From positions 1 through 54,443 of the IMG/VR virus record IMGVR_UViG_3300021379_001249: 54,443 nucleotides of DNA; one strand, 5' to 3'. The position numbers were made by a program, and so were the translations under genes. The stretch comes from a virus. The notes under the pieces were generated by a model that did not search any database, was not told the origin of the DNA, and was given only the letters and a program-made list of their open reading frames with translations. Shown in pieces: positions 2,095-28,076 of the stretch (positions are counted from its first letter, which is position 1; the number at the start of each line of letters is the position of its first letter).

Positions 2095-2127
2095 CTATAT
2101 ACCTAACAGAATTTGTCTATATTTTCT

Positions 2128-3759: not shown

Positions 3760-3780
3760 GTCTAATAGTCCTTTTAGTGG

Positions 3781-3788
3781 TATTTATT
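3781..3788 (-). promoter_or_regulatory. T4-type late promoter (AATAAATA)
   Basis: The minus strand reads AAAAATAAATACC. The TAA stop of the 3784-5415 gene is embedded in the motif, and the ATG of the 2131-3759 gene follows about 25 nt downstream, preceded by AAAAGGAC as a likely ribosome site. Confidence 0.6.
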
Positions 3789-11465: not shown

Positions 11466-12803
11466 TCAGCTAAAGTTAAGTGCTGCTGTTGTAAGAACTT
11501 GTGTTCCTGCTGCTCCTACTCGATGGACAGTAAATGATAATTGACTTATCGTCCCACTGGCAGTAGGTAATGATGGTTCTGAACCTGACGGGAATAGGAA
11601 GTATGTAGAGAACCCAACAGTTGCAATACCTGTGTTCACAATAGTGATGACATGAGTTGCATACTCTGTGCCACCTTTACAATCAATAGTTGCTAAACCA
11701 GATACATTTACTTTGTGAACATCTTTTGAAAGATCTAATGTGGCAATGGATTGATCAGTTGCGGTAATTGATTCGGTGCTAAGTCCAACTGATATTCCTG
11801 TTAAGTTGCTGCCATCACCTTCAAATGATGTGGCAGTTAATGCACCCGTTGATGAATTAAAGGTAAGATTGGTGCCAGTTTTTGCTTCAAGTCCTGTGCC
11901 GGTTGCATCAGTTGTAAAGAGAACATTACATGAAGTATCACTTGACTCATCTACAACATTAAAACCTGCTGCAATGTTTGATTGAGTAATAACAGAGTTA
12001 CCCATCAGTGAGTGATTAGTACACTGATAGTGAAGAACTGCTGGTGTTGTGTCACTTACTGTAATTTCAGTGTAAGCATTATCAAAGGTTACGCCTGTAG
12101 AGTATAATGTTGTCTTGTCTGCTTCAAGATAAAACTTGAGTGGATGACTACCAGTATTATCGTTAGTAAATCTATATGTTCTACCAGGAGTTAATGTAAT
12201 AACTGGTGCTTGTAAGTTATCAATAACATATCCATTACTGCTACCAGATCCATTGTATCTGTGCGTAGAGTCTTTAGTCGCTACTGTTACTGTGTAAGTA
12301 ACTGTTCCACCACCTGCTTGTCCGAGAGAACCATCATAAGTCAATCTATCCTCAAATGTACCAATACCCGTTACATCAACACCATTTGCAAGAACTTGAA
12401 TACCCTGTTGGGCAGTAATGATACCAACAGAATCAATATGCTCTACATCTTGATAAGTTAATGTACCACCAATGGTTACATTACCGCTAAAAGAACCAGA
12501 TGCTGCTGTTACAGAACCAACGGTGATGTTAGGAGTACCCGTAAGTCCTTGAGCATTTACAGCAAGAGTAGCATTGCTTGCTGTTCCAGTAAGATTACCA
12601 ACAACACCACCGGATGCAGTGGTAACACCAGTAATTTTAACGCCACTTAAAAATGTTGCTTCAGTTGCAGTCTGAATATTATCTGTGCTTGCAACACCCG
12701 TTAAACCTTCTCCACTTCCCACAAAAGAAGACGCGGTAATCACACCCGCTACATTTATATTGCCACTCAGTGGATTTAATAGTTGTACCTTCTTCTGTGA
12801 CAT
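11466..12803 (-). CDS. Tail fibre with cupredoxin-like domain
   Basis: This 445-aa fibre begins with a shaft region rich in GVITASSFVGSGEGLTGV-type repeats and the shared block (GLTGTPNITVGSVTAASGSF, then GTLTYQDV...DSVGIITAQQGIQV). Residues about 175-275 form a cupredoxin-like domain: TYRFTNDNTGSHPLKF with H220, then LHYQC at C261, followed by H264 and M267, which resembles the C-x2-H-x-M loop of plastocyanin. A GDGSNLTGI repeat and a distinct C-terminal domain (about 345-445; SKDVHKVNVSGL..IDCKGG) follow. It is the first gene of a pair with the 1522-aa adhesin, which also has a cupredoxin-like domain. Copper binding is inference; the domain could be structural only. Confidence 0.82.
   Translation of the reverse strand: MSQKKVQLLNPLSGNINVAGVITASSFVGSGEGLTGVASTDNIQTATEATFLSGVKITGVTTASGGVVGNLTGTASNATLAVNAQGLTGTPNITVGSVTAASGSFSGNVTIGGTLTYQDVEHIDSVGIITAQQGIQVLANGVDVTGIGTFEDRLTYDGSLGQAGGGTVTYTVTVATKDSTHRYNGSGSSNGYVIDNLQAPVITLTPGRTYRFTNDNTGSHPLKFYLEADKTTLYSTGVTFDNAYTEITVSDTTPAVLHYQCTNHSLMGNSVITQSNIAAGFNVVDESSDTSCNVLFTTDATGTGLEAKTGTNLTFNSSTGALTATSFEGDGSNLTGISVGLSTESITATDQSIATLDLSKDVHKVNVSGLATIDCKGGTEYATHVITIVNTGIATVGFSTYFLFPSGSEPSLPTASGTISQLSFTVHRVGAAGTQVLTTAALNFS
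12375..12545 (-). repeat. Dispersed fibre shaft block (one of eight copies)
   Basis: This block encodes the GLTGTPNITV...GNVTIGGTLTYQDV...IITAQQGIQV segment. Related copies lie near 5690-5830, 16370-16515, 18705-18800, 20520-20640, 22335-22440, 24165-24260 and 26290-26400, all on the same strand. Copies share long identical stretches such as acatcttgata and accctgttg(t/g)gc. Such direct repeats would allow homologous exchange between fibre genes. Confidence 0.75.
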
Positions 12804-12831: not shown

Positions 12832-15255
12832 TTAGCGTGCAATGCCGCCATTCGCTTGGAATGGATTTTCAGCAAATGCGGCGTAGATGTAGGTGTTGCC
12901 GCTCAGATTAGGTACAGTGCCACCGCTTGATCTGATCTTGATGCCATTGCTTAAAAAATCGCACCTATCAGTAGTGCTATATTCAGCATTGTTGTTGTTA
13001 GGTTGCAAACCTGTAGTTACAACGTTATCAATATCTCTTGATGAGTCATAGATATTCCAAGGTTGGGTTGCGTCAGCGTTTTTCACGAAAAAGAAAGCCG
13101 GCCTGAATCCTAAATTCAAGAACGGACCATCAGCGTCATTATTCCCTTCATATGTGCCAAAGGCACTATACGATTCGATAGCCTTAAAGCAGAAGGCGAT
13201 GTGATCTCCAGTGTTTGGATCGTAGCTAAATACAGAACTGTTCACAGTCCCAAATGACGTTGTAGTTTCTACGGCGTTTGTTTGATTTAGGCGCATCTGT
13301 TTGCCAGTACCTAATGCACTATGGTAAACATACCAATCCTCTGATCCACCGCTAGCCCGCTTAATCCAAATCATATCGGGGGTATCGCCCAAGCCGTGCC
13401 CCAGAGTTTTAGTGCCTGTCGTCATACTTGGCGCTTGCACAATGGAAAACCCAGCTGTTGTGTTGGCTCTTACATTTGTAGTAAAATTGCCATTAGTGTT
13501 GCTGACCGTTGACGATCCAGCGTCCCAACACCAAGCACAAAATGTCCCGCTGCTTTGGTTTACGTCATCAGAATTGCCTAATGTAAATCCATCGCTGTCA
13601 AAACTTGTCACCATCCCCGTGCCAGTCCCTGGGACGCCAGATGAATTAGTAACAGCAAACTTATTTGCACCTCGTATAGTGTCAAAAATCAAGTTGTTTC
13701 TGGTTGTGTTTCTTTGCTTAATCCAAACAAGGTCTGGGCTGAAAGAAAATTCACTCCGCTCATGTGTTGAACCTGTGCCTGTATAGAGGTCTATGTCAAA
13801 ATAATCCGAACCATCGGCAATAGTAGGTGTAGGCAGTGAAGTTGTCGTAAGACACTTATGATTAGTTGGAGCTGAATGAGAAAATTCACGCTGCCCCCAG
13901 TTTGCAACAACCGTTTGTGCTGCGTTGTTAGCATTGTCTCCTACATAAGGAAAATATGTTCCGCTTGGTAGACTTGTCGTTGCATTGCCTTGTGAAACTC
14001 CATTCTTGTAAAACGCCAACGTACTATTGTCTAGATCCAACGCAACGCCAATAATATCTCCCGTCGTGTAACTATCTCCGTAAGAGGAATCAGCACTGCT
14101 CAACCACTTATTTCCATTGTAACTACTGTAGAAATATGCACCGGCACTGGTTGGACTTGCTGCATCAGGACTTAAAGATCCTAAGGCAACACCAATGGCT
14201 GCGTTTGTATTTCCATCAGCACTTGTGAGTTCAACTTCCCAGTAATATTTTCCACTAGACACACCAATACTTCCAAAAACACCGTCTTTGGGAGAACTTG
14301 TGGTAGCAGCCTGAAGATTGCCGTTTGACAGAGTTACATCGTTGCCTTTGTTAAGAGAATTGAAAACACAGTAGTTCCCGATAACTTCTCCACCGGCACC
14401 GGAGTCAGTGTTCTCAGTATCATTTGTTGGAAAGTCAAACAGAACATCATTACCTGAACCTGCTGCTTCACTAAAACCATTTGCTGTAAAGTTATTGCCA
14501 TTCCCACTAGTGTCGTTGCCAATTGTTCCATCATTTGCAAAATCTAAAAGGTGAAAACCGTTTGTTCCATATGATCCACTATAAGTCGATCTTTGCCATA
14601 CTCCGTTTGAGTCAGCAGCCCCGAATGATCCGGGGGTAAGTTGAGATCCATCAACAAAATGTACATCGGTTATGAGGCCATTCATCACATTTGTGCCAGA
14701 ATTATAACTGATGTAATGAACATGATTTGAATCATTCATGTTGGTGTTGATACTATCACCGGGGAAGTTAGTGCTTGTCTGAAGAGATTGTTCAACACCA
14801 TTTACGTAAATTCTAACCCTGTTATTACTAACACCTTGAGTGGTATCTACTGCACAAACAACATGATACCATGCACTAAAATCTCTAAATACAGCGTCTG
14901 TATAAACATAGAAGTTATCACCCCCATACTGATCAAGGCTAATCCTATAATCTTGTCCGCCACCTGTTCCACGAAATTTTAAAAGAGTGTAGTCACTACC
15001 ACCAGTCGATGCTCTAAACAAACTATCACGGCTGGTATCACCACATCTTTTTACCCAACCACTCCAAGTCCATGTCGTGCGATTAGTTGTGGAACTTGGA
15101 GTGCGATTTAGATAAGTTGAGGTGTCGGTAAAACGAAGTGAACGATTTCCTAAAGTAACACCAGAACTAAGAAGAGCCTGCTGAAAAGCACCACCTCCCA
15201 TTCCACCCATAGTGAGCATGGGTTTTTCTTTCTTGTGCCAATTATTATCTATCAT
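12832..15255 (-). CDS. Tail adhesin with LamG, SPRY-like and DUF7483-like domains
   Basis: This 807-aa adhesin starts with the KKEKPMLTMGGMGGG anchor also found at the starts of the 16750 and 24412 genes. A LamG-like domain follows (about 36-230; RTTWTWSGWVKR, WYHVVCAVDTTQ, RIYVNGVEQ), then a SPRY-like domain (about 323-460; SSGKYYWEVEL, IIGVALDLDNSTLAFYKNG), then a DUF7483-like domain (about 480-800; LVWIKQRN, HGLGDTPDMIWIKR, AFCFKAIESYSAFGTYEGN). It follows the 15270 fibre gene by only 14 nt with TTGAGG as ribosome site. It is probably a receptor-binding tip subunit docking on that fibre (inference). Parts of its 3' half look more GC-rich than the neighbouring genes, which may mean recent exchange. 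Confidence 0.82.
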   Translation of the reverse strand: MIDNNWHKKEKPMLTMGGMGGGAFQQALLSSGVTLGNRSLRFTDTSTYLNRTPSSTTNRTTWTWSGWVKRCGDTSRDSLFRASTGGSDYTLLKFRGTGGGQDYRISLDQYGGDNFYVYTDAVFRDFSAWYHVVCAVDTTQGVSNNRVRIYVNGVEQSLQTSTNFPGDSINTNMNDSNHVHYISYNSGTNVMNGLITDVHFVDGSQLTPGSFGAADSNGVWQRSTYSGSYGTNGFHLLDFANDGTIGNDTSGNGNNFTANGFSEAAGSGNDVLFDFPTNDTENTDSGAGGEVIGNYCVFNSLNKGNDVTLSNGNLQAATTSSPKDGVFGSIGVSSGKYYWEVELTSADGNTNAAIGVALGSLSPDAASPTSAGAYFYSSYNGNKWLSSADSSYGDSYTTGDIIGVALDLDNSTLAFYKNGVSQGNATTSLPSGTYFPYVGDNANNAAQTVVANWGQREFSHSAPTNHKCLTTTSLPTPTIADGSDYFDIDLYTGTGSTHERSEFSFSPDLVWIKQRNTTRNNLIFDTIRGANKFAVTNSSGVPGTGTGMVTSFDSDGFTLGNSDDVNQSSGTFCAWCWDAGSSTVSNTNGNFTTNVRANTTAGFSIVQAPSMTTGTKTLGHGLGDTPDMIWIKRASGGSEDWYVYHSALGTGKQMRLNQTNAVETTTSFGTVNSSVFSYDPNTGDHIAFCFKAIESYSAFGTYEGNNDADGPFLNLGFRPAFFFVKNADATQPWNIYDSSRDIDNVVTTGLQPNNNNAEYSTTDRCDFLSNGIKIRSSGGTVPNLSGNTYIYAAFAENPFQANGGIAR

Positions 15256-15269
15256 TTTTTACCTCAATA

Positions 15270-16661
15270 TTAAGCGAAGTTTGCAACATTAGCAAGAACT
15301 GTATATGTAGCATCACCTGTTTTAATTATATTGTAAGTATAATAGTCATTTCCTGAACTACCACCTGCAGAAGGAGCACTACCACCATTCCATTTTTCAG
15401 TGACAGCAGATCCATCAATAGTTAGTTGAGCAGAATAACCTGCTGCTGCAGCAGTGGTGATTATGGTAACTGATATAGCATCACCAGTTGCCATTACAGA
15501 GTTTAATGTAGTTGACGAGTTAACTCTAATGTTAGGTGTTGCTGTTGTTGTCTCTGTTGTAGTAAACAGATGTGCCATTCCATCTTCAAGATCAATATTA
15601 GTATTATCGCTTAACTTACCAGCAGTAATATTGATTCTTTCAAGTAGTTCACCATTATTAAAGTGAATACCACCACCTGAGGTGATACGCATTTTTTCCG
15701 ACATCGCACTACCATTATGAGTTAAGAATGCAATATCACCTGTGCGACTTGAGTGACTTTTATTAATAAAGTCAATTTGACTTACAACAAGACCATTCGA
15801 GTTGTATCCTCCTATGTTAGAGAAATTATTATCGGTGGAATTAAGATTGGCAAGAGATAATGCTCCACCAGCATTAGCTGCCAAATTGGTGCTGCTACTG
15901 ACACCTGAAAGACTAACAAATCCGCTACTAAGTCTTGATCCTGCAGTGGTAAGAGCCGTAGTAGTCTTCGCAACTAAAACATTACCGCTTGCATCAAATC
16001 TGGCTACTTCGGATCCCAGTGATCCATTTGACACCGGGAAAAACTTTAGAGCACTAGAAGTAGCACCATCTGATCCAAAAAGTCTATAACCATACTCAGC
16101 ACCAGATGATCCACGAGTAATTTCAACCGAAGCATTTGCTGTTGCATTATTAACGCTTAATTCTGCGTTAGGATTTTCATTTCCGATACCAATCAAACCA
16201 GTAGAAGTTACACGAAGTCTCTCAGTGCCATTAGTGTTTATTGTAAAAGTGCCAGTAGAAGGGAATCTAATAGAAGTATCAGTATCACCAGTGTGCAGAA
16301 TAGAGTCTGCAATAGAAACGTTACTCTTGAATGTGCTTACTCCAGTAACATCAAGTCCATTTGCTAGGACTTGGATACCCTGCTGTGCAGTGATAATACC
16401 AACAGCATCAATATGACTTACATCTTGATAAGTTAATGTTCCGCCAACAGATACGTTACCACTAAAAGCACCAGATGCTGCTGTTACAGAACCAACTGTT
16501 ATGTTTGGAGTACCAGTAAGTCCAGAAGCATTTGTCGCTGTTCCAGTGACATCTCCTGTCAGATTACCAGAAAACGAAGATGCTGTAATAATACCAACAC
16601 TCAAATCTTCAGTTGTTGATAATGCGGTAGTAAAACCAGCTAAGTCTGATATTCTAGACAT
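15270..16661 (-). CDS. Tail fibre, first gene of a fibre/adhesin pair
   Basis: This 463-aa fibre has the shaft motifs GIITASSFSGNLTGDVTG and the shared block near residues 45-95. A middle region (about 100-290) carries fibre motifs: ADSILHTGDTDTSIRFP, GTERLRVTSTGLIGIG. The C-terminal domain (about 325-463; ERINITAGKLSDN, HLFTTTETTTATPNI, SAPSAGGSSGNDYYTYNIIKTG) is shared with the 18119 and 25502 fibres. Each of those three genes is followed by a KKExP...GGG adhesin, so this C-terminal domain is probably the docking platform for the partner. It is preceded by two late-promoter-like motifs. Confidence 0.84.
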   Translation of the reverse strand: MSRISDLAGFTTALSTTEDLSVGIITASSFSGNLTGDVTGTATNASGLTGTPNITVGSVTAASGAFSGNVSVGGTLTYQDVSHIDAVGIITAQQGIQVLANGLDVTGVSTFKSNVSIADSILHTGDTDTSIRFPSTGTFTINTNGTERLRVTSTGLIGIGNENPNAELSVNNATANASVEITRGSSGAEYGYRLFGSDGATSSALKFFPVSNGSLGSEVARFDASGNVLVAKTTTALTTAGSRLSSGFVSLSGVSSSTNLAANAGGALSLANLNSTDNNFSNIGGYNSNGLVVSQIDFINKSHSSRTGDIAFLTHNGSAMSEKMRITSGGGIHFNNGELLERINITAGKLSDNTNIDLEDGMAHLFTTTETTTATPNIRVNSSTTLNSVMATGDAISVTIITTAAAAGYSAQLTIDGSAVTEKWNGGSAPSAGGSSGNDYYTYNIIKTGDATYTVLANVANFA

Positions 16662-16673
16662 TCTATTGCCTTT

Positions 16674-16702
16674 CTAGTTATTTATCTGCTGGTTTATTTA
16701 TT
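16674..16702 (-). promoter_or_regulatory. Two tandem T4-type late promoters
   Basis: The minus strand carries AATAAATAAACC (16691-16702) and AGATAAATAACTAG (16674-16687) in the 88-nt gap before the 15270-16661 gene. A double late core at the largest gap between fibre genes suggests a well-expressed transcription unit covering the 15270 and 12832 pair. Confidence 0.55.
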
Positions 16703-16749
16703 GATACTAAGCAATGGCGAGGAATATATAAATGCCACTTCTTTAATTG

Positions 16750-18105
16750 TTAAATTTTGGTGACATCTTCTGTAAGAGTAGCCGCCGCATCAGTTAATGT
16801 TGAAGTTGATTCAGTAGGACTTCCTTTTGCACTTGAAGTTGATAAACTCGGAGTACCTCCAGTCAATGATCCTGCAGATTCAGTTAGAGTTGTAGCTTGA
16901 TATGTAAATGAACCATATGTTCCGGTTTTTGAACCATCACTAGGAAGTTTTGCAATAAAAATATCATCACTACCTTCACCATCCGAGGCAGTGTACCCAC
17001 TGACATACATGTTATCACCAACTACTTTAATACCCAGTCCATAATCTCCACCTGATCCTCCCAACGCTCGTTGAAACTGAAGTGTCCCTGAACTATTCCA
17101 TTTTGCAATGAAAATATCTCTACTTCCGGCACCAACACCACTTAAGTATCCACATACATAAACATTATCATCACTATCAGTCGTGATAGCATTTGGAACA
17201 TAACGGCTATATTGAGTTATTCTACGCTGCCACTGAATTGTTCCTGAACTATTATATTTTACTACTTCAGTATCTTCATAAACTCCATCATTGAACTGAA
17301 CTGCTACATAGACATTTCCTGAAGTGTCTACCGCAACTCCATGCCTGGCAGGTAAGTCACCAGTAGATGAAGAAAGAGATCTTTGCCATACTATATTTGT
17401 ACTACTATTAAGTTTTGCAAGCCAGAAATCAAAAGAAGACGATCCTCCATCATAATAACCAGCAATATATTGATCGGAACCATATACCGCTATTGAATTG
17501 CCATATGAATTACCGCCATTATCAAAACTCCTCTGTATTTGTATGGTGCCAGAACTATTTCGCTTATAAATTGCAATCGCGGCTAAGTTAGATGAATTAG
17601 CACGGACGCCTGCTGCATAGACATTATCAGAACTATCAATAGCTATTGAGTATAAGTAATCACTTAGTGTTGTACCATTTACTTTTTGCCACTGAAGAGT
17701 TCCAGAATTATTATATTTTACCATTAAGGTATCATTACTTCCAGGACCCTCTGATACGGTAAGTCCACATACGTAAACATCATCAGAACTGCCAATAACT
17801 ACGCCATAAAATTGATCTTGACTGGTTCCCCCCAATGTTCTTTGCCACTCCAAAGAACCAAGATTATCAAACTTTGCTATGTATGCACTTTTATCTCCAG
17901 GACCCGCTGAACTAGTTCTCCCTACAACAAATATATTTTCATTACTATCAATTGCTATGTCTTGTCCCCTTTCTTCACTGCTACCACCAAGAGTTGCAAT
18001 CCAATATTCAGAACCACCACCTACTAAACTACTTCCAACACCACCACCCATTCCAAGCAAATTGAGAAATGGTGATTCCTTTTTATAATGCTTAGTCAAA
18101 TTCAT
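16750..18105 (-). CDS. Tail adhesin with SBBP-type seven-bladed propeller
   Basis: This 451-aa adhesin has the anchor YKKESPFLNLLGMGGGVG at residues 7-24. Seven repeats of about 50 residues (about 33-395) have the SBBP pattern (DSSDNVYVCG......DIFIAKWNSSGTLQFQR), for example LGGSSEERGQDIAIDSNENI and LGGSGGDYGLGIKVVGDNM. A low-complexity Thr/Ser-rich tail (LTESAGSLTGGTPSLS) ends the protein. SBBP repeats form beta-propellers (family knowledge), here of a different family from the six other propellers. It starts 14 nt after the 18119 fibre stop behind GATAGGAGATAA, nearly identical to the junction at 25489-25501. It is probably the tip subunit of that fibre. Confidence 0.84.
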   Translation of the reverse strand: MNLTKHYKKESPFLNLLGMGGGVGSSLVGGGSEYWIATLGGSSEERGQDIAIDSNENIFVVGRTSSAGPGDKSAYIAKFDNLGSLEWQRTLGGTSQDQFYGVVIGSSDDVYVCGLTVSEGPGSNDTLMVKYNNSGTLQWQKVNGTTLSDYLYSIAIDSSDNVYAAGVRANSSNLAAIAIYKRNSSGTIQIQRSFDNGGNSYGNSIAVYGSDQYIAGYYDGGSSSFDFWLAKLNSSTNIVWQRSLSSSTGDLPARHGVAVDTSGNVYVAVQFNDGVYEDTEVVKYNSSGTIQWQRRITQYSRYVPNAITTDSDDNVYVCGYLSGVGAGSRDIFIAKWNSSGTLQFQRALGGSGGDYGLGIKVVGDNMYVSGYTASDGEGSDDIFIAKLPSDGSKTGTYGSFTYQATTLTESAGSLTGGTPSLSTSSAKGSPTESTSTLTDAAATLTEDVTKI

Positions 18106-18118
18106 ATTTTATCTCCTA

Positions 18119-18898
18119 TCAAGCCAAGTTAGTAACATTAGCGAGAACTGTGTATGTAGAATCGGCAGTTTTGATTATACTGTAAGAGTATAAATCTTTT
18201 CCACTTGCTCCACCAGCAGTGGGAGCACTTCCTCCATTCCAAACGAGCTCACCACCATTTGTTCCCACAGTGACACCATCAATATGAACTGTCGCTGCAT
18301 AACCAGCAGCTGCGGCAGAAGTAATAATAGAAACAGAGAATGCTTCTCCTATTTTAACATCGGTATTGATACCTGTTCCTGACATAATATTAGGAGTTGC
18401 TGTTGTTGTCTCGGTTGTGGTGAACAAATGAGACATTCCATTATCAAGATTGATATTTGGAGCAGCACTTAATTTATTTGCAACAACATTCACTTGCTCT
18501 CTTAACAGTCCAGCAAAATCAACATTAGTTGCTTGCAAACCAGCAGAAGATGTTGTGACTGCGGCACCAGTAAGTTCGCCAGTAACATTACCAGTAACAT
18601 TACCAGTAATGTTGCCAGAGAATGATGTTGCAGTAACAACACCAGTGACACTTACACCAGTCTTAAACGTGGAGAAACCAGTGATATCAAGTCCATTAGC
18701 AAGCACTTGAACACCCTGTTGTGCTGTAATGATACCAATGGAATCAATATTATTAACATCTTGATATGTTAGTGTACCAGCAATACTAACATTGCCAGAA
18801 AAAGTTGCTGCAGTGCCTGTGACATTAAGTCCATCAGGAAAGTCAGGTGCTCCCGTACCCAGTCTATTAGAGTAATTATCCGCTCTTACCTTTGACAT
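18119..18898 (-). CDS. Short tail fibre, first gene of a fibre/adhesin pair
   Basis: This 259-aa fibre is the minimal version of the family. The N-terminal anchor (residues 1-25; VRADNYSNRLGTGAPDFPDG) matches the RADxxxxxxGTGAP anchors of the next three genes. The shared shaft block follows (about 30-75), then TGVVTATSFSGNITGNVTG. The C-terminal docking domain (about 130-259; VNVVANKLSAAPNINLDNG, HLFTTTETTTATPNI) is shared with the 15270 and 25502 fibres. It overlaps nothing and is followed closely by the SBBP adhesin. A perfect TATAAATA late core lies upstream. Confidence 0.84.
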   Translation of the reverse strand: MSKVRADNYSNRLGTGAPDFPDGLNVTGTAATFSGNVSIAGTLTYQDVNNIDSIGIITAQQGVQVLANGLDITGFSTFKTGVSVTGVVTATSFSGNITGNVTGNVTGELTGAAVTTSSAGLQATNVDFAGLLREQVNVVANKLSAAPNINLDNGMSHLFTTTETTTATPNIMSGTGINTDVKIGEAFSVSIITSAAAAGYAATVHIDGVTVGTNGGELVWNGGSAPTAGGASGKDLYSYSIIKTADSTYTVLANVTNLA

Positions 18899-18931
18899 TT
18901 GGGTTCACTCTCCCCCAATAGATTTTTTTAT

Positions 18932-18939
18932 TATTTATA
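18932..18939 (-). promoter_or_regulatory. T4-type late promoter (perfect TATAAATA)
   Basis: The minus strand reads GTTATAAATAATAAAA, a perfect TATAAATA core, 33 nt before the ATG of the 18119-18898 gene and after the stop of the 18947 gene. Nearly the same leader (ATAATAAAAAAA, then GGGGGA.AGTGAACCCAAATG) precedes the 25502 gene. Confidence 0.7.
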
Positions 18940-18946
18940 ACTCAAC

Positions 18947-20743
18947 TTATGCCTTAATAGCAATCTCAGTTGCTGATAATGCAAGTCCTGCTTCTACTGA
19001 TGGTGTACCTGCTGTTGTGCTAAGTGTACCATCATTTTGTACATAATGCACTGAAGCAGTTGTTAAACCACTTTGAGCATCATCAACGGCACCTGCAATT
19101 TGTATCGTAGCAGTTTGTCCGTCAGTATATGCAGCATTAGAGAAACCTAAGAAGTTTGATGATGTGAGGTTTGTACTTTCATTTCGGAAAACAATAGATG
19201 TTCCATAGTTTGAATTACCTTCATCTCGATAACCAATAATAACTTTATTGATATTTGAAGCAAATGTTGCATCTATGTTATCAGTAGCAGCAGATTCAAA
19301 TATAAGAGAAGTATCAAAACTAATACTAGTACCAGATACAGTGCCTACAATCACTCTTCCATAATTATATCCTCCACCTGAGTTTCCACCATCCTTATAA
19401 GCAATAACTACTTTACCAGCATTAGAGTCATATACTGCTGCAGTTCTGAAAATGGCAGCAGAGTCAAATACAACAGGAGATCCAAAACTTATACTAGTAC
19501 CAGATACAGTGCCTACAATTGCTTTTCCTTTATCGCTGTCACCATTATCCGTAAAAACAATAACTACTTTTTCGTTACTGGAGTCATATGTTGCTGAAAT
19601 ATTTTCGCTTCTAGCACTTTCAAAAACTACAGCAGAACCAAAACTAATTGAAGTGCCACTAACAGTTCCTACGATAGCAGTTCCGTAGTGAGAATTACTG
19701 AGATGTCTCCATGCAATGACTACTTTATTATTGGTTGAATCAAATGTTATGTCAGGATTGCGACTATCGGAACCTTGAAATTGAGCAACACTACCAAAAC
19801 TAACATCAGTTCCACTAATAGTTCCTACTATAGCAGCCCCATAATTATTGTTGTCTCTGTACGCTAGAACAATTTTATTGTTGCTAGAATCAAATGTTCC
19901 AACAATATCAGATGCTTCTGAAACAAATTGTACTTCAGTACCAAAACTTATTGATGTACCACTTACAGTTCCTACACGCGCCTTTCCATATTGATTGCCA
20001 CCACCTTCTTGATACGCTATAAGAAATTTATTAGCATTAGAGTCAAAAGTTATTGAAGTATAATCCATCGCAGTAGTCTCAAAAACTACAGGAGTACCAA
20101 AACTTATTGATGTGCCACTTACGGTTCCTACAACTGCTTTTCCTTTATCGCTGTCACCACCATCCTTATAAACAATAACTACTTTTCCGTTACTGGTGTC
20201 AAATGCTGCGTCAATTCCTCTGTCTGTGACATTACCAGATTCAAATACAGTAGCAGATCCTAAAGATTGACTAGTGGTTGCAATACCAGTTACTGTACCA
20301 TCACTCTGAAGAATAACAGTTTGTCCATTCGCTAAAGTTCCTGATGCAATACCAGATACTGAAGGACTGACACCAGAAAGAGATGAACCATCACCACTAT
20401 AAGAAGTGGCAGTGATAACTCCAGTTACATCTAAACCACCACCATTGATGGTTGCAATACCTGCTACAGTTATTGGATTATTAAATGTTCCAACACCACT
20501 TACTGTAACACCGTTAGCAGATACTTGAATACCCTGTTGTGCTGTGATAATACCAACGGAGTCAACGTTGGTTACGTCTTTATATGTTAAATTACCATCA
20601 ATCGTTACGTTACCAGTGAATGATCCGTTGGCAGCAGTTATGTCACCAGTAAAGGTAACAGCAGCACCAGTCACACCACTCTTAAAGTTTGGTGTTCCTG
20701 ATCCAGAATAGTTAACGAGTGAGTCTGCTCTTAATCTAGACAT
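18947..20743 (-). CDS. Tail adhesin with seven-bladed propeller (paralogue 4)
   Basis: This 598-aa adhesin has the anchor MSRLRADSLVNYSGSGTPNF, the shaft block (about 40-75) and GDGSSLSGV, then the linker ASGTLANGQTVILQSDG. Seven blades follow at about 160-520, with cores such as YDSSNEKVVIVFTDNGDSDK and ends VGTVSGTSISFG, then the DAQSGLTT cap. The blades are highly regular, more so than in the 481-5415 genes, which fits recent amplification. It is a predicted receptor-binding protein with shaft and head in one chain, unlike the two-gene pairs. Confidence 0.86.
   Translation of the reverse strand: MSRLRADSLVNYSGSGTPNFKSGVTGAAVTFTGDITAANGSFTGNVTIDGNLTYKDVTNVDSVGIITAQQGIQVSANGVTVSGVGTFNNPITVAGIATINGGGLDVTGVITATSYSGDGSSLSGVSPSVSGIASGTLANGQTVILQSDGTVTGIATTSQSLGSATVFESGNVTDRGIDAAFDTSNGKVVIVYKDGGDSDKGKAVVGTVSGTSISFGTPVVFETTAMDYTSITFDSNANKFLIAYQEGGGNQYGKARVGTVSGTSISFGTEVQFVSEASDIVGTFDSSNNKIVLAYRDNNNYGAAIVGTISGTDVSFGSVAQFQGSDSRNPDITFDSTNNKVVIAWRHLSNSHYGTAIVGTVSGTSISFGSAVVFESARSENISATYDSSNEKVVIVFTDNGDSDKGKAIVGTVSGTSISFGSPVVFDSAAIFRTAAVYDSNAGKVVIAYKDGGNSGGGYNYGRVIVGTVSGTSISFDTSLIFESAATDNIDATFASNINKVIIGYRDEGNSNYGTSIVFRNESTNLTSSNFLGFSNAAYTDGQTATIQIAGAVDDAQSGLTTASVHYVQNDGTLSTTAGTPSVEAGLALSATEIAIKA
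19182..20262 (-). repeat. Tandem blade repeats within the propeller gene
   Basis: Seven in-frame DNA repeats of about 150 bp. The VGTVSGTSISFG segment recurs as near-identical DNA, for example around 19485-19515 and 20095-20130 (ccaaaacttat...gt(a/g)cca). The same sequence occurs in the two following genes, giving extended homology across 5 kb. Confidence 0.8.
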
Positions 20744-20774
20744 TTATGTTCACTCTCTATGGCAACTTTTTTTA

Positions 20775-20782
20775 TATTTATC
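20775..20782 (-). promoter_or_regulatory. T4-type late promoter (GATAAATA)
   Basis: The minus strand reads AGGATAAATATAAAAAAAG; the TAA stop of the 20778 gene is inside the motif. The 18947-20743 gene starts about 32 nt downstream. Confidence 0.62.
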
Positions 20783-22553
20783 CTTTGACAATTATCTTGG
20801 TTGCAGAAACGGCAGTTCCAGCCTCTACTGATGGAGAACCAGCAGTTGTACTTAATGTTCCATCATTCTGTACATAATGTTTTCTTGCAGTTGTTAAACC
20901 AGACTGGGCATCATCAGTTGCACCAGTTATTTGTATTGTTGCAGTATCGCCATCAGAATATGCAGCATTAGAAAAACCTAAGAAGTTTGTTGATGTTAGG
21001 TTTGTTCCAACTGTTCTAAAAACAACTGCTTCTCCTCGGCCATCGTCATCATTTTTAAAGATAATAACCGTTCTATTATTGGTGGAGTCAAATGTTGCCG
21101 AATAATATTCAGTATTACCAGATTCAAATGTAACAGGATCATTAAAACTAATTGATGTGCCACTTACCGTTCCTACAATTACTTTTCCTTTGTTAGAATC
21201 ACCATGATCCTCATAAGCAATTACTACTTTATCTTCACTAGAATCAAATACTGCAGAAAGATATCTACTATCACTAGATTCAAATACTACAGCAGAACCA
21301 AAACTAATTGATGTGCCTGATACAGTTCCTACAACTGCTGTTCCATATTGAGAGTTACCAGAATCTCTGTAAGCAATAACTACTTTACCATTGGTGGAAT
21401 CAAATGTTGCCGAATTCCACGTAGTAGATGAAGAAGTATAGACAACAGCACTGCCAAAACTAATACTAGTACCAGATACAGTTCCTACAATTGCTGTTCC
21501 ACCATTTGAACCATGCTCATAAGCAATCACTACCTTACCATTAGAAGAGTCAAATGCTATGGAAATATCTGCAATACCCGCAGATTCAAATACAACAGGA
21601 CTACCAAAACTAATACTAGTTCCACTAACAGTTCCAACAAGTGCAGTTCCATGGCCAGAATTTGCAGCATCTCTGTAAGCGATTACCACCTTACCATTAG
21701 TAGAATCATACGCTATCACATTGTATTGGGTATTTGAACTTCCATCAATAACAACTGGAGTACCAAAACTAATTGAATCCCCACTTACAGTTCCAACGAC
21801 TGCTGTTCCTTTATTGCTATTACCTCCATCCCGATATGTAATTACTATTTTTCCATTAGCAGAATCAAATGTTGCTGCTGGGTAATCAATAGCAGCACCT
21901 TCAAACTCAACTCCAGAACCAACAGTAATTCCTATACCTGTTACAGTTGCAACAACTGCTGTTCCGTGGTAGTTAGCAGCAGGACCTCGATATGCAATCA
22001 CTACTTTATTATTTGTAGAATCAAAGGCGCTAGAAAAACGATAAACCGTAGAAGATTCAAAAATAGTGGTGACGCCAACTTGAGTATTTCCTACAACACC
22101 TGCCACAGTTCCATCACTTTGAATGATAACAGTCTGTCCATTCGTTAATGATCCCGACGCAATACCACTTAAAGTAGGAAGAACACCAGTAAGATTAGCA
22201 CCACTTCCTTTTAATGTTGTGGCAGTGATGACACCAGCAACATTCAAACCATTAGCATCAGCAGTTGTAACTCCAACAACTTCAATAGAGTTATTAAACG
22301 TACCAACACCAGTTACGGTAAGTCCGTTCGCCTCAACTTGAATACCCTGTTGTGCAGTGACGACACCAACAGCGTCAATATTTTCTACTTCTTGATATGA
22401 TACTGTACCACCAATAGTTAAATTGCCAGAAAATGTCGCGTTGACGCTGGATACCTGAGTAAATGTAGCACCAGTTGCAACTATTCCATTAGGAATGTTT
22501 GGTGCTCCTGTACCGTCTCTATTTACTATTGAGTTAGCTCTAAATCCAGACAT
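20778..22553 (-). CDS. Tail adhesin with seven-bladed propeller (paralogue 5)
   Basis: This 591-aa adhesin starts with MSGFRANSIVNRDGTGAPNI, then the shaft block (GTVSYQEVENIDAVGVVTAQ), GSGANLTGV and the linker ASGSLTNGQTVIIQSDG. Seven blades lie at about 158-514 with cores such as FDSTNGKVVIAYRDSGNSQY, and the DAQSGLTT cap ends the chain. Blade edges (for example ESAGIADIS, TSSSTTWNS, ESSDSRYLS) differ most between repeats, while strand cores are conserved, as expected if loops on one propeller face make the receptor contact (inference). Confidence 0.86.
   Translation of the reverse strand: MSGFRANSIVNRDGTGAPNIPNGIVATGATFTQVSSVNATFSGNLTIGGTVSYQEVENIDAVGVVTAQQGIQVEANGLTVTGVGTFNNSIEVVGVTTADANGLNVAGVITATTLKGSGANLTGVLPTLSGIASGSLTNGQTVIIQSDGTVAGVVGNTQVGVTTIFESSTVYRFSSAFDSTNNKVVIAYRGPAANYHGTAVVATVTGIGITVGSGVEFEGAAIDYPAATFDSANGKIVITYRDGGNSNKGTAVVGTVSGDSISFGTPVVIDGSSNTQYNVIAYDSTNGKVVIAYRDAANSGHGTALVGTVSGTSISFGSPVVFESAGIADISIAFDSSNGKVVIAYEHGSNGGTAIVGTVSGTSISFGSAVVYTSSSTTWNSATFDSTNGKVVIAYRDSGNSQYGTAVVGTVSGTSISFGSAVVFESSDSRYLSAVFDSSEDKVVIAYEDHGDSNKGKVIVGTVSGTSISFNDPVTFESGNTEYYSATFDSTNNRTVIIFKNDDDGRGEAVVFRTVGTNLTSTNFLGFSNAAYSDGDTATIQITGATDDAQSGLTTARKHYVQNDGTLSTTAGSPSVEAGTAVSATKIIVKG
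21010..22080 (-). repeat. Tandem blade repeats within the propeller gene
   Basis: Seven in-frame repeats of about 150 bp. The segment ccaaaactaat(a/t)(c/g)(t/a)(a/t)gt is repeated at about 21300, 21450, 21605 and 21765. It is homologous to the repeats at 19182-20262 and 22815-23900. Confidence 0.8.
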
Positions 22554-22573
22554 CTGGGCACATTATTTTTAAG

Positions 22574-22581
22574 TATTTATT
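22574..22581 (-). promoter_or_regulatory. T4-type late promoter (AATAAATA)
   Basis: The minus strand reads AACAATAAATACTT, with the TAA stop of the 22577 gene embedded in the motif and the ATG of the 20778-22553 gene about 21 nt downstream. Confidence 0.6.
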
Positions 22582-24382
22582 GTTTGACGATTATTTCTGT
22601 GTCAGAAATTGCAGTTCCTGCCAACACAGAAGGACTTCCAGCAGTGGTGCTAAGTGTACCGTCAGTCTGTACATAATGCTTGGAACCTGTTGTTAAACCA
22701 GATTGTGCATCATCTAATGCGGTTATAATCTGAACAGTTGCTGTTTGTCCATTTGTATAAGCAGCATCAGAGAAACCAATGAAGTTTTCTGATGTTAGAT
22801 TTGTGCCTGTAGATGCGTTTTGGAACACAACTGCTGTTCCGTAATTAGAGTTTCCTTGATCCTTATATACGATCACCACTTCATTATTAGTTGAATCAAA
22901 TGTTGCTGAAAGGTAATCAGTCACAGCACTCTCAAAAACTACGGCAGTACCAAAACTAATACTAGTTCCACTTACGGTTCCAACAATTAATGTTCCATAA
23001 GTAGAGTTTCCGCCATCTCTATAAGCAATAACCACTTTACCAGCATTTGAATCATATGCCACTGCATTATAATCAGACATAGTAGCAGATTCAAATACAA
23101 CAGCAGTTCCAAAACTAATACTAGTTCCACTTACGGTTCCAACAATTGCTGTTCCATAACTAGAGTTTCCATCATCTTGATAAGCAATAACTACTTTTCC
23201 ATTAGCAGAGTCAAATGCTGCTGATATTCCACTACCAAGATTAGCAGATTCAAACACAACAGCAGAACCAAAACTAATACTAGTTCCACTTACTGTTCCA
23301 ACGATTGCTGTTCCATAAGCAGAGTTTCCATCATCCCTGTATGCAATAACAACTTTTCCATTAGTTGAGTCATACACTGGAGCAATATGTCTAGTAGCAG
23401 CAGATTCAAAAACTGTGGCACTGCCGAAACTAATACTAGTTCCACTCACAGTTCCTACAATTGCTGTTCCATAATCAGAGTTTCCATCATCCTTATAAGC
23501 AATAACCACTTTACCATTAGTAGAATCAAATGTTGTTGATACAAATTCAACTTGTGCGCTTCTAAAAGTCGCTACGGAACCAAAACTTATCGATGTACCA
23601 GATACAGTGCCAACCACTGCTTTTCCATAATTAGAGTTTCCACCATCCGAATATGCAATTACTACTTTACTATTAGTAGAATCAAATGTTGCTGAAATGT
23701 AAGTGGAATTAGCAGATTCAAATACAACAGGAGTGCCAAAAGTGATTGATGTCCCACTCACAGTGCCCACGACAGCAGTGCCATAATTACTGTTTCCAGC
23801 ATCTTTATAAGCAATTACTACTTTACTATTTGCAGAGTCAAACGTTGCTGAAGTCCACTGAGAGTTGGCAGATTCAAATACGGCGGGAGATCCAACAGAT
23901 TGAGAAATATCACTCGTAGACACACCTGCAACCTTTCCATCAGATGTTACAATGACAGTTTGTCCGTTAGATAAAGTTCCTGAGGCAACTAATGAAGTAG
24001 TGCGGTTAGTTCCTGTTAAAGCACTTCCATCACCAGTAAATGAAGTTGCAGTAACTACACCAGTGGCATGAAGTCCAGATTCATTAATGGTTGTAATACC
24101 AGCAACAGTTATTGGTGAATTAAAAGTGCTGATACCAGTTACATCAAATCCATTTGCAGAGACTTGAATACCCTGCCGAGCAGTTATAATACCTGTTGAG
24201 TTTATATTATCCGCGTCTTGATATGTTAATGTGCCATCAACTGATGCATTACCAGATAAACTAACATTACCACCACCTAAGTCACCAGAGAATGTTCCAG
24301 TGGTAGAAGTAGCACCATGAGTTAAGTCTGGTGCCGAAGTACCAGTTCTATCTGTTAGTGTATCAGCTCTTAGTCTAGACAC
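22577..24382 (-). CDS. Tail adhesin with seven-bladed propeller (paralogue 6)
   Basis: This 601-aa adhesin starts at GTG (24380-24382). The N-terminus MSRLRADTLTDRTGTSAPD is followed by the shaft block, GDGSALTGTN and the linker ASGTLSNGQTVIVTSDGK. Seven nearly uniform blades (about 159-522) have cores such as FDSTNGKVVIAYKDDGNSDY and ends VGTVSGTSISFG; the DAQSGLTT cap closes the protein. It is the most regular propeller in the window and could be the most recent product of blade duplication. It probably serves as a receptor-binding protein with its own shaft. Confidence 0.86.
   Translation of the reverse strand: MSRLRADTLTDRTGTSAPDLTHGATSTTGTFSGDLGGGNVSLSGNASVDGTLTYQDADNINSTGIITARQGIQVSANGFDVTGISTFNSPITVAGITTINESGLHATGVVTATSFTGDGSALTGTNRTTSLVASGTLSNGQTVIVTSDGKVAGVSTSDISQSVGSPAVFESANSQWTSATFDSANSKVVIAYKDAGNSNYGTAVVGTVSGTSITFGTPVVFESANSTYISATFDSTNSKVVIAYSDGGNSNYGKAVVGTVSGTSISFGSVATFRSAQVEFVSTTFDSTNGKVVIAYKDDGNSDYGTAIVGTVSGTSISFGSATVFESAATRHIAPVYDSTNGKVVIAYRDDGNSAYGTAIVGTVSGTSISFGSAVVFESANLGSGISAAFDSANGKVVIAYQDDGNSSYGTAIVGTVSGTSISFGTAVVFESATMSDYNAVAYDSNAGKVVIAYRDGGNSTYGTLIVGTVSGTSISFGTAVVFESAVTDYLSATFDSTNNEVVIVYKDQGNSNYGTAVVFQNASTGTNLTSENFIGFSDAAYTNGQTATVQIITALDDAQSGLTTGSKHYVQTDGTLSTTAGSPSVLAGTAISDTEIIVKQ
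22815..23900 (-). repeat. Most uniform tandem blade repeats
   Basis: Seven in-frame repeats of about 155 bp. The string ccaaaactaatactagttcc recurs at about 22950, 23107, 23267 and 23426, followed by act(t/c)ac(g/a/t)gttcc. The regularity exceeds that of the other five propeller genes. Confidence 0.85.
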
Positions 24383-24403
24383 TTATTTCACTACATTTTT
24401 TAG

Positions 24404-24411
24404 TATTTATA
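24404..24411 (-). promoter_or_regulatory. T4-type late promoter (perfect TATAAATA)
   Basis: The minus strand reads AATATAAATACTAAAAAATG, a perfect late core immediately after the TAA stop of the 24412 gene and about 22 nt before the GTG start of the 22577-24382 gene. Confidence 0.7.
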
Positions 24412-25488
24412 TTATGAACCCTCACTGATTGCGATGTAGATAAATGTTCCTCCAGCATTCCAATTACCATTGTTTGTATTATCAAAAGTAAAACCTGTTG
24501 ATGTAGGGTATAAACCGGTGTAGTTTTTAGTTTCTTCGTCGTCGTTGGTGTTGGGAAACAACACTTTATAACTTGAACTTGTCACTCCACGAGTAGTATC
24601 AACTAACCACCAAGGAGATTGTGCGCTGGATCTCTTAAATAGAATCCACTGAGGTTGAAATCCAAGATTTTCAGATATAGTTGTATTTGATCCCATAGTA
24701 AAACCACCGCACTTAATAATGGATTCGTTTCCACCAGTTCCAAACTCTTGTTCATCGTGAGCAAACAGGTAAGCAACATAGGTTCTATTAAGAACGTTGA
24801 TTGCAGCAGTATCTCCTCTAAAGTAAGTAGATGTTGGAGTAAAACTTGCCCAACGGGAAGATCCACTAACACCAGAATCAGTCTCAGACAATCTTAGTTC
24901 ACCTTGATTTCCAGTATATCGATGATATGAATACCAAGGATCACTACCGAAGTTACGTCCCTTCACCACGATAAACCCAGGAACACTACCAAGATTGTGG
25001 GGTATATTTCGGTTAGTTTGGCCATCGCCAGTATATGTTATTACATCAAAAAATTTAGGGCACTTGCGAAAAGTCCAAGAAACATAAGTGTCATTAACGT
25101 AATTATTAGTTTCACCACCCAATAAGAAACCGTCACTATTGAATTGTGTCAATCCTCCAGATGCTGTTCCCTCTTGAGCAGTTGCTTCGGTACGTAAATA
25201 TTTTGTTGTACCTCTTTCTGTATCGTAAAGAAAATGTTGATCATTACCCCCCGCAACACGTTTTTTCAACCAAACAAGTCCACCTTCACCTGATAAGTCA
25301 ATATCATTAGTTATCGTTTGTGTTTCTTCTTCACCGGAACCGTTATTGTTTCCTGTATATAATTTTGTCGAAAATACTTGATCTACAGTAATCCCAGAAG
25401 CAGCGGAAAATAATCTACTTGGAACACCACCACCCAGTCCAGTTAACCCTTGAATGGGTGCTTCTTTCTTTGAAAATTCATTTAACAT
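24412..25488 (-). CDS. Tail adhesin with DUF7483-like domain
   Basis: This 358-aa adhesin has the anchor FSKKEAPIQGLTGLGGGVP at residues 5-23, shared with the 12832 and 16750 genes. The rest is a single DUF7483-like domain: GLVWLKKR, HFLYDTERGTTKYL, FNSDGFLLGG, YVSWTFRKCPKFFDVITYTG, HNLGSVPGFIVVKGR, then a second half with LGFQPQWILFKR. It begins right after the 25502 fibre stop behind GATAGGAGATAA, a junction nearly identical to that at 18106-18118. It is probably the tip subunit docking on that fibre. DUF7483 has no assigned function that I can state; its place at phage tips suggests receptor binding. Confidence 0.82.
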   Translation of the reverse strand: MLNEFSKKEAPIQGLTGLGGGVPSRLFSAASGITVDQVFSTKLYTGNNNGSGEEETQTITNDIDLSGEGGLVWLKKRVAGGNDQHFLYDTERGTTKYLRTEATAQEGTASGGLTQFNSDGFLLGGETNNYVNDTYVSWTFRKCPKFFDVITYTGDGQTNRNIPHNLGSVPGFIVVKGRNFGSDPWYSYHRYTGNQGELRLSETDSGVSGSSRWASFTPTSTYFRGDTAAINVLNRTYVAYLFAHDEQEFGTGGNESIIKCGGFTMGSNTTISENLGFQPQWILFKRSSAQSPWWLVDTTRGVTSSSYKVLFPNTNDDEETKNYTGLYPTSTGFTFDNTNNGNWNAGGTFIYIAISEGS

Positions 25489-25501
25489 ATCTTATCTCCT
25501 A

Positions 25502-28036
25502 TCAAGCAGCAGTTGTTGTAAGTGTAGCAATAACAGTATACGTAGAACTTGCAGTCTTCATAATGGTGTAAGCATAGATGTCTACACCACTTGCTCCACC
25601 AGCAGAAGGAGCACTTCCACCAGTCCAGTTCAACGTACCACCGTTTGTTCCTACTGTGTTTCCATCAATATGTACTGTTGCTGCATATCCAGCAGCTGCA
25701 GCAGTTGTGACAATTGTGACTGACATTGCATCACCAGTTGCCATGGCAGTATTAATGCCAGTGGTTGTCATAATATTAGGTGTTGCCGTAGTTGTCTCAG
25801 TGGTTGTGAAATGATGAATCATTCCATTGTCAAGGTTAATATTTTGATTATCACTTAACTTACCAGCAGTAATATTGACTCTCTCTATCAGTTCTGCATT
25901 ATTGAAGTGAACACCACCTGTTGAGGTAATACGAAGCCTTTCATTATCAGCAGTGTTAAACGCCATGGCATCATTGGCATGTTCATATTTAATGATGCCT
26001 CGATTAGGAGTCGCAGTTCCATCAGCAAAGAAAATATGTCCATTGTTGCCAGTTCCACTGACAATTGTCATGCCACCATTATTACCCGTATTTCCTAATA
26101 CAAGTTCATTACCGGCACTATTGTAACTACCGGGATTGTTAATATTAATACCAACTTTACCACTTGAATCTACACGAAGTCTCTCACTACCAGCAGTTTC
26201 TACTGTAAAGATATTAGCGGCAGGGAATCTTACAGCAGTGTCAGTATCTCCTGTATGAATAATTTTGTCGGCGATTGATACATCACTTCTTGCAGTGATG
26301 ATACCAATAGAATCAATATTGGTTACATCAGCATATGTTAAAGTTCCCCCAATAGTGACATTACCGCTAAAGGAACCAGTAGATGCTGTTACATTACCAT
26401 CAAATGATGTAGCAGTACAAACACCAGATACTGTTAAACCAGCAGTAAATTCAGGTGCTCCTGTTCCAGATGCATCAGCAAAGTTATCAGCACGAACTCT
26501 ACCACCAGACTTACCAAGTGCAGGTAATGTTTGAGTGGTTCCGATGCCAAGAATGTTAGGAACAAACTCATCACCATCAGCAACGATTAAGTCTGCGTCT
26601 CCACTAACTTCAATCTCTGCATATTGAGTGTAAGCAACAATAGCAGTGCTTGGAGGATCAATAGTAATTGTTGATGCGACACCGAGAACTTGATCAGTGT
26701 AGTAAATCTTATTAAGAGGACTTGTTTGAACAGAGCTTAATGCAGTTCCAAGTCCAGCAGGTAAGTTGGTAAGATTGCTACCATCACCTTCAAACGATGA
26801 TGCCGTAACAACACCAGTGAAGTTAGCGGTAGAACCAGTTAAGATACCAGTAACTACAATACCATTAGGGTTGGCTTGTGCCTTTACATTACCACCACTA
26901 TCTTTGATTGCTGTAGCATCAATACCTGTTAATGCACTACCATCACCGTGGAATCTAGTGGCAGATATTGCACCATCCGAAATAGAGATAGCAGTACCAA
27001 CTTTAAAACCAGTAGCAGTTGTAATACCAGAAACATTAACACCACTGGGATTAAATCTTGCTACTTCTGATCCATTTGAAGTTACAGCAGGATGTTCATC
27101 AGCAGGGAGATAAAAACCAGTGTTAGAATCACTACCAAATGAAATAGCAGGGACAGATGCAGTTCCTGTGCTGAACGCAACATTCGTCAGTGTTGTAATA
27201 ATACCAACGTTAAATGGTGCAGCGTCTACCCACTGTGCGCTGTTATCATCTTGATAGTAGATGAAGAGTCGTCCAATATCTGTATTATACCACAGGTTTC
27301 CGGCAGTAATAATACCAGTGAAAGCATCGCCAGGTGTAGAACCAACACCAATACTTGCACTACCACCACCTCCACCTTGGAAGTTGACTGTTACTATACC
27401 AACAGCAGCATTATACTGAGCGGTTGTGAATCCAGGGCCTTTGAATTCAAGGAAAGAAACACCGTATCCAACTACGCCACCAGTTGTTCCAACACCGATC
27501 TGTCCAGCACCAATAAACTGTGCTGCAGTGACAACACCACTAACAGTTGCACCACTACTAAAGTTGGGATAATTTGATAATGTAGTGATGTTTGCAGTGG
27601 TGATTGTTGCAGTACCACTTACATTTACATCTCCTGAAGAAATTGCATCTGTAAACGAGGTAATTCCAACAACGACTGGAATCGTTGCAATACCTGTGAG
27701 ATTCAGGTTTCTACCAGTAATCTCATCATATGAGAGATCAGCAAATGTGGTAAATCCAGTAACTGTAAGTTGATCAACACTTAAACCACCAAGTGTTGAG
27801 AACCCAGTTACATTTAAATTGCCAAGATTTACATCACCCGCTGCTACTTCCAGGTTTGCAATCGTAGCAACACCTGTAATATTAATATCCGTTGCTGCAA
27901 TTCCACCACGAACATCCAGAGTAGAGCGAGGCCCAGTGCTCGCAATACCTACCTTTTTACTACTGGCGTCCGCAACAATAAGATCAGAGTTAACCTCTAA
28001 GCCATTCTTTACGACAAAACTCTTATCTACTGCCAT
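25502..28036 (-). CDS. Long composite tail fibre, first gene of a fibre/adhesin pair
   Basis: This 844-aa fibre begins MAVDKSFVVKNGLEVNSDL with early shaft repeats (NVTGFSTLGGLSVDQLTVTG). A middle region holds IGVGSTPGDAFTGI and FLEFKGPGFTTAQY, then the GDGSALTGIDA..IKDSGGNVKAQANP module shared with the 5426 fibre. Near residue 513 an internal copy of the RVRADNFADASGTGAPEF anchor appears, which is N-terminal in four other genes. After it come the shaft block, fibre motifs (HTGDTDTAVRFP, GSERLRVDSSGKVGI) and the docking domain (about 705-844). The protein looks like a basal fibre fused to a complete short fibre. Its promoter leader resembles that of the 18119 gene. Confidence 0.84.
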   Translation of the reverse strand: MAVDKSFVVKNGLEVNSDLIVADASSKKVGIASTGPRSTLDVRGGIAATDINITGVATIANLEVAAGDVNLGNLNVTGFSTLGGLSVDQLTVTGFTTFADLSYDEITGRNLNLTGIATIPVVVGITSFTDAISSGDVNVSGTATITTANITTLSNYPNFSSGATVSGVVTAAQFIGAGQIGVGTTGGVVGYGVSFLEFKGPGFTTAQYNAAVGIVTVNFQGGGGGSASIGVGSTPGDAFTGIITAGNLWYNTDIGRLFIYYQDDNSAQWVDAAPFNVGIITTLTNVAFSTGTASVPAISFGSDSNTGFYLPADEHPAVTSNGSEVARFNPSGVNVSGITTATGFKVGTAISISDGAISATRFHGDGSALTGIDATAIKDSGGNVKAQANPNGIVVTGILTGSTANFTGVVTASSFEGDGSNLTNLPAGLGTALSSVQTSPLNKIYYTDQVLGVASTITIDPPSTAIVAYTQYAEIEVSGDADLIVADGDEFVPNILGIGTTQTLPALGKSGGRVRADNFADASGTGAPEFTAGLTVSGVCTATSFDGNVTASTGSFSGNVTIGGTLTYADVTNIDSIGIITARSDVSIADKIIHTGDTDTAVRFPAANIFTVETAGSERLRVDSSGKVGININNPGSYNSAGNELVLGNTGNNGGMTIVSGTGNNGHIFFADGTATPNRGIIKYEHANDAMAFNTADNERLRITSTGGVHFNNAELIERVNITAGKLSDNQNINLDNGMIHHFTTTETTTATPNIMTTTGINTAMATGDAMSVTIVTTAAAAGYAATVHIDGNTVGTNGGTLNWTGGSAPSAGGASGVDIYAYTIMKTASSTYTVIATLTTTAA

Positions 28037-28068: not shown

Positions 28069-28076
28069 TATTTATC
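28069..28076 (-). promoter_or_regulatory. T4-type late promoter (GATAAATA)
   Basis: The minus strand reads GAGGGATAAATAATAAAAAAA with the TAA stop of the 28072 gene inside the core. The ATG of the 25502-28036 fibre lies about 33 nt downstream, after CCCAA. Confidence 0.65.

Follow-up and report, generated by a model that had tools for sequence, protein, structure and literature searches.

The window analysed here is the whole of IMG/VR viral record IMGVR_UViG_3300021379_001249, a contig of 54,443 bases from a marine virus that its baseplate genes identify as a T4-like phage. The product of gene 50930 is 42% identical, over part of its length only, to the S-SM2 tail-tube cap. Isolates compared with the first 25 kb of the window included no near match, and T4-type late-promoter motifs were no more frequent than expected by chance. 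Large genes for fibres and adhesins follow one another on the minus strand over positions 1–35,633, and among them three fibre genes are each followed directly by an adhesin gene:

15270..16661, minus strand: fibre gene 1, ORF of 463 aa, matching phrog_5906 at residues 321–462 (E 2e-36)
15273..15647, minus strand: type I socket at the C-terminus of fibre 1 (profile E 2e-66)
12832..15255, minus strand: adhesin 1, 807 aa, comprising plug, LamG-like, SPRY and DUF7483 domains (Pfam)
15184..15255, minus strand: type I plug at the N-terminus of adhesin 1 (MIDNNWHKKEKPMLTMGGMGGG..; plug pattern)
18119..18898, minus strand: fibre gene 2, ORF of 259 aa, matching phrog_5906 (E 7e-20)
18122..18505, minus strand: type I socket at the C-terminus of fibre 2 (profile E 3.7e-74)
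16750..18105, minus strand: adhesin 2, 451 aa, comprising plug and SBBP beta-propeller (Pfam SBBP E 1.4e-16)
18034..18105, minus strand: type I plug at the N-terminus of adhesin 2 (MNLTKHYKKESPFLNLLGMGGG..; plug pattern)
25502..28036, minus strand: fibre gene 3, ORF of 844 aa, matching phrog_5906 (E 6e-27)
25508..25891, minus strand: type I socket at the C-terminus of fibre 3 (profile E 9.6e-73)
24412..25488, minus strand: adhesin 3, 358 aa, comprising plug and DUF7483 (Pfam DUF7483 E 2.4e-41)
25417..25488, minus strand: type I plug at the N-terminus of adhesin 3 (MLNEFSKKEAPIQGLTGLGGG..; plug pattern)

The initial annotation of this DNA had described a C-terminal domain common to the three fibres, present in multiple copies, and partner genes that follow at once and share a distinctive start, all of which we find to be so. 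The domain, which we call the type I socket, is ~125 amino acids long, carries the motif KLS..xNI.L.xGM.H.FTTTETTTATPNI in all three fibres and is 63–67% identical to the first copy in the others; a profile search of the record returned exactly three copies. All three sockets match the profile of PHROG 5906, which is the same domain and carries no assigned function; one is proposed here. Searching the socket sequence against solved structures gave nothing significant. At the level of the predicted fold, its best matches appear to be phage structural proteins, namely the Pa223 capsid spike (Z 6.8), residues 80–180 of CBA120 TSP4 (Z 5.6) and T4 gp9 (Z 5.3), with alignments of 95–97 residues at rmsd 3.2–3.7; these Z-scores are modest, and values below 8 may reflect a common arrangement only. 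Among predicted viral proteins the fold has 102 matches at E ≤ 0.001. S16 gp37 (6F45) is absent from the fold matches listed for the socket, which leaves room for a relationship between the two.

The adhesin genes start 14, 13 and 13 nt beyond the fibre stop codons (pairs 1, 2 and 3, respectively), the gene order of gp38-type adhesins. Their N-termini conform to the pattern KKExP-x5-G[ML]GGG, which is found three times in the window and defines the type I plug, a segment of ~22 amino acids with one tryptophan in 12832 and none in 16750 or 24412. The remainder of the partners had been said to differ completely. This is not the case: 12832 and 24412 both carry DUF7483, their heads being 26% identical over ~350 amino acids (E 2e-22), and the propeller of 16750 is the only type I head in the window unrelated to the other two. 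A fold search with DUF7483 found no clear relative.

It had also been claimed that no other fibre gene possesses either part. For the type I socket profile and plug pattern this is correct, each being found three times, but two analogous pairs of other types lie one on each side of the type I genes:

11466..12803, minus strand: fibre gene with type II socket (about 11469–11840), conserved in loci L123–L125 together with a conserved partner N-terminus
6884..11452, minus strand: type II partner, 1522 aa, comprising adaptor MARVFSAPIIGQSAASGAQVIDGSL and a LamG, SPRY-like and DUF7483 head
29751..35633, minus strand: large fibre, 1960 aa, with type III C-terminal domain (about 29754–30182)
28072..29754, minus strand: type III partner, 560 aa, comprising adaptor MIGLGFYNVTQTTTDLNGPFLRF, Ig domain and glycine-rich head (Ig_3, phrog_24848)

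The 6884 N-terminus is conserved in L123, and its spacing relative to 11466 is likewise kept in other contigs. The 28072 gene overlaps 29751 by 4 nt, and in 13 loci the type III C-terminal domain is conserved alongside a related N-terminus in the partner. The type I and type III socket profiles show weak similarity over their last 44 columns (p 2e-4, probability 44); the type II socket has no profile similarity to either.

Further possible pairings were seen elsewhere. Fibres that end in a different domain (..TTAEDxDxVTxGIHYN..) are followed by the plug variant KE[KS]P[VI]FTGI[TS]RG[IV]GGFG in L043 (4836) and L037 (minus strand, about 1999), possibly a fourth docking type. In L150, L157, L160, L161, L168 and L175, DUF7483 proteins with MAVNKRLLQG- or MGLNKRLIGAG-like starts lie downstream of a small KTDWYIIREADNG.. 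protein instead of a fibre, which may represent a further adaptor pairing. Within the window, a shaft module (TLTYQDVxNIDSIGIITAQQGIQV) is present in seven fibre genes, its DNA 62–87% identical to the reference copy:

12412–12519, 16387–16494, 18723–18830, 20541–20648, 22354–22461, 24180–24287 and 26292–26399: copies of the shaft module

Six proteins (at 18947–24382 and 481–5415) have SGTSISFGSAVVFES...DSTNGKVVIAYRDGGNS-type repeats and are apparently single-chain beta-propellers. Three of these, the fibres 18947, 20778 and 22577, combine the shaft module and the repeat head, apparently a propeller, in one chain; the other three have a different N-terminus (MAPIFVGSNSDD..).

How strictly socket and plug go together was surveyed in three sets of loci: (a) a socket-first search yielding 32 viral loci, (b) a plug-first search by DNA patterns blind to the socket and (c) a search with a wider socket profile, isolates included. 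The expectation in the initial annotation that neither domain would often be found alone was borne out from both sides. Because the plug DNA pattern occurs in only 45 stretches in 2.9 million viral contigs, nearly all of them true plugs behind sockets, the pattern in the window is not a chance occurrence. On the plug side, 82 genes carry the pattern, 77 have an upstream ORF and in 74 of these a socket lies directly upstream; the three without comprise one chance match and two genes in L066, so that true plug genes are preceded directly by a socket in 74 of 76 cases. On the socket side, 89 distinct sockets in sets (a) and (b) and the annotated isolates have a readable downstream gene, which begins with the strict plug in 76 cases and a looser match in three; by eye, the remainder are followed by a divergent plug with a P-start (seven) or by a second socket gene (three). 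The strict pattern was seen in 25 of 818 other ORFs, most of which are true plugs where the start was picked differently or the contig ends.

In set (c), the matches listed include 94 socket ORFs, all with the domain at the very end of the protein, and of the 82 distinct genes downstream of them, 81 encode a plug and one is a tandem socket. Gaps between socket gene and partner gene among these matches are mostly −4 to +21 nt, and the wider plug consensus reads M(S)P[LI]-x5-G-x5-GFG. If any M(S)P start is counted, the figures are 68/82 genes downstream of sockets versus 34/546 other ORFs. Fusions of socket and head genes were sought in the survey loci and none was found, sockets being C-terminal. 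A tblastn search of isolates with the plug gave no match, the query being too short.

One-to-one pairing is not strict, however, since L066 has three tandem plug genes behind one socket, two of them without a socket of their own, and the isolates S-CAM22 (L101), P-SSM7 (L102) and S-MbCM6 (L104) have two consecutive socket genes followed by a single adhesin. In L066 (390–3900) a 2OG-oxygenase-like gene precedes the last of the three plug adhesins, which are possibly alternative heads for one socket, and genes for 2OG-Fe(II) oxygenases or similar small proteins were also noted near the fibre and adhesin genes of L037, L102, L103 and L104. The fibre/adhesin layout of the window recurs, with glycine-rich adhesins, in the isolates P-SSM7, S-CAM22, Syn30, S-MbCM6 and CRP-3, and in ctXG6705 the partner bears the annotation ‘phage tail fiber adhesin gp38’. 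One viral collection alone contains at least 582 socket relatives. The presence of socket and plug relatives in hundreds of viral sequences suggests a widespread means of swapping the part of the phage that contacts the host. The literature searched, in which few subscription journals were covered and in which absence is weak evidence, contained nothing specific on socket/plug pairing in marine phages.

What the plug carries varies greatly, in keeping with the interchangeable heads originally envisaged. Amongst 75 partners scanned for domains (nearly all type I, with the type II and III partners of the window included) we found Gly_rich_2 (23), DUF7483 (12), LamG (6), RCC1 (4), SBBP (4), SPRY (2) and GP38 (1), in proteins of ~200 to 1900 amino acids. 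By sequence, the M(S)P plug in its wider form also carries DUF7483-like heads among the matches listed, and homologous heads are mounted on adaptors of types I and II within the window itself, those of 12832 and 6884 (E 1e-50). Evidence for what the adaptor follows comes from an unbiased head-first set of 30 deduplicated pairs, gathered from DUF7483 heads alone, in which nearest neighbours were compared using the first 22 amino acids of the adaptor and the last 90 of the upstream gene product. Adaptor and upstream C-terminus share their nearest neighbour in 15/30 pairs, compared with 3/30 for adaptor and own head and 3/30 for head and upstream protein (permutation mean 1.0, maximum 6, 2000 runs). 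The adaptor therefore goes with the C-terminus encoded upstream and not with the head to which it is fused. The docking domains had been described as covarying, which stands across types in the light of these figures but not within type I, where socket and plug distances are all but uncorrelated (Mantel r 0.08, 48/500 permutations) and there is therefore no signal of coevolution. Conservation of both the socket and the plug in type I fits a common standard, not pairwise coevolution.

For structure prediction, AlphaFold2 was given the L001 socket–stop–plug pair as a fused monomer, translated in frame across the stop codons, with 42 paired rows. The socket is predicted confidently (pLDDT about 88–96); the plug is not placed (pLDDT 36–52). 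The model of adhesin 3 alone (pLDDT 84, pTM 0.85) has a confident DUF7483 domain with residues 1–30 below 50, and the plug thus appears disordered when the adhesin is modelled by itself.

Three other explanations of the pairing can be weighed against docking. The downstream protein might be a tail-fibre assembly chaperone of the T4 gp38, Tfa or Alteromonas A5 gp9 type, which caps the fibre C-terminus to help it fold and may then leave. The gene order is that of fibre–chaperone pairs (PMC10579305) and phrog_863 (‘tail fiber assembly’) matches 3/75 partners, but no chaperone family profile matches the three partners in the window, and proteins of up to 1900 amino acids with lectin-like, propeller and glycine-rich heads are hard to reconcile with such a role, for which heads of unrelated folds would be needless; we regard it as improbable. 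We give the same low weight to linkage alone, in which a recombination junction spanning the fibre gene's 3′ end and the opening codons of its neighbour would move as one, the two proteins never touching. Head swaps do occur at the fibre/adhesin boundary and the fused-monomer model predicted no contact. A junction maintained by DNA homology should keep its bases, however, whereas the plug is conserved as protein and its third codon positions vary freely, their entropy being 1.56–1.98 of 2 bits (near random) at the conserved P, T, G, S and A codons; moreover, amongst the matches listed, phages with sockets of only 40–50% identity still share both socket and plug at the protein level.

The plug might, lastly, be no more than a leader for trimerisation, folding or translational coupling of the adhesin, with no binding to the product of the neighbouring gene. 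Its shortness, N-terminal position and disorder in isolation, together with the tight spacing of the two genes, would suit a leader. Against this, the plug follows the upstream C-terminus over its own head, is conserved at the amino-acid level and is almost never found without a socket, and this explanation strikes us as the least probable of all.

Taken together, the results are best read as describing a two-part, non-covalent receptor-binding fibre tip with exchangeable heads, and we consider it likely that such a tip is both real and widespread. The fibre, probably a trimer, would end in a constant beta-rich socket domain, and the gene directly downstream would encode an adhesin with a short N-terminal plug (P-[LIF]-x4-5-G-x-GG or, more widely, M(S)P[LI]-x5-G-x5-GFG). 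As the virion assembles, the plug, disordered alone, would fold onto or inside the completed socket, and docking of the two would fix the receptor-binding head in place without a covalent bond. As only the plug would have to be kept, heads of unrelated folds could be exchanged. With three type I pairs, one type II and one type III, a virion might bear several heads, each at an addressed position. A more tentative proposal, which we would put at a little under even, is that mutually exclusive socket/plug codes, at least three of them in this record, serve tailed phages as an addressing system, in which the short N-terminal code sets the fibre for each head, one virion shows several different heads in fixed places and acquiring the right tag of ~20 residues would make a new head usable.

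Were the docked tip to be confirmed, M(S)P[LI]-x5-G-x5-GFG or KKExP-x5-GxGGG behind a socket C-terminus would be a short signature of receptor-binding proteins in uncultured marine phages, whose host range is difficult to predict. PHROG 5906 would gain a function, as would the N-terminal segments of many proteins with DUF7483 or Gly_rich_2, and the exchange of heads between unrelated folds would be directly testable with small purified domains.

The initial annotation had likened the pairs to gp37/gp38, a comparison that holds as analogy and not as family membership. In S16, the gp38 attachment domain comprises three helices with three exposed tryptophans (PMC6851490). A single gp38 adhesin caps the fibre trimer, its N-terminal part setting compatibility (PMC6851490, PMC12892980), and PP01 gp38 regains function on T2 fibres when the N-terminal 113 amino acids of T2 gp38 are swapped in (PMC12892980). 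The window pairs resemble T2/S16 gp37–gp38 in that the adhesin gene lies behind the fibre gene, the adhesin N-terminus would decide the fit and the putative receptor-binding part is variable, and many of their relatives have glycine-rich heads. Membership of the gp38 family was considered and rejected. PF05268 (GP38) gave no match to the window partners at E ≤ 1 and none in a record-wide search in which the controls were equally silent; amongst the 75 scanned partners it matches one, at E 2e-4. The window plugs are too small for the S16 attachment domain (PMC6851490): they are only about 22 amino acids long, have at most one tryptophan and are disordered alone. Nor do the type I heads of the window, which are LamG/SPRY/DUF7483 or SBBP, include a polyglycine II sandwich. 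We have therefore not filed the partners as gp38 proteins. The window also differs from T2/S16 in that a single record combines several pairs with at least three docking types, and in the many unrelated folds of the heads.

Two further systems offer partial parallels. The tailspikes of CBA120 and other Ackermannviridae similarly comprise several receptor-binding proteins per phage joined by beta-rich docking domains (PMC8825819), and the fold matches of the socket include CBA120 TSP4 XD1 and T4 gp9, at Z-scores of 5–7 that may reflect a common arrangement only. In CBA120, however, the docking domains are N-terminal, whereas the socket here is C-terminal and its proposed ligand a short peptide; TSP4 XD1, moreover, is thought to be a spacer and not a binding site (PMC8825819). 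In Alteromonas phage A5, a fibre and a downstream cap gene are swapped together, as one module, among distant marine phages (PMC10579305), but the A5 partner is a chaperone resembling intramolecular chaperones (PMC10579305), unlike the partners described here with their adhesin-type heads. Our best reading is that the tip would work like that of T2/S16 gp37–gp38, with a much shorter adaptor.
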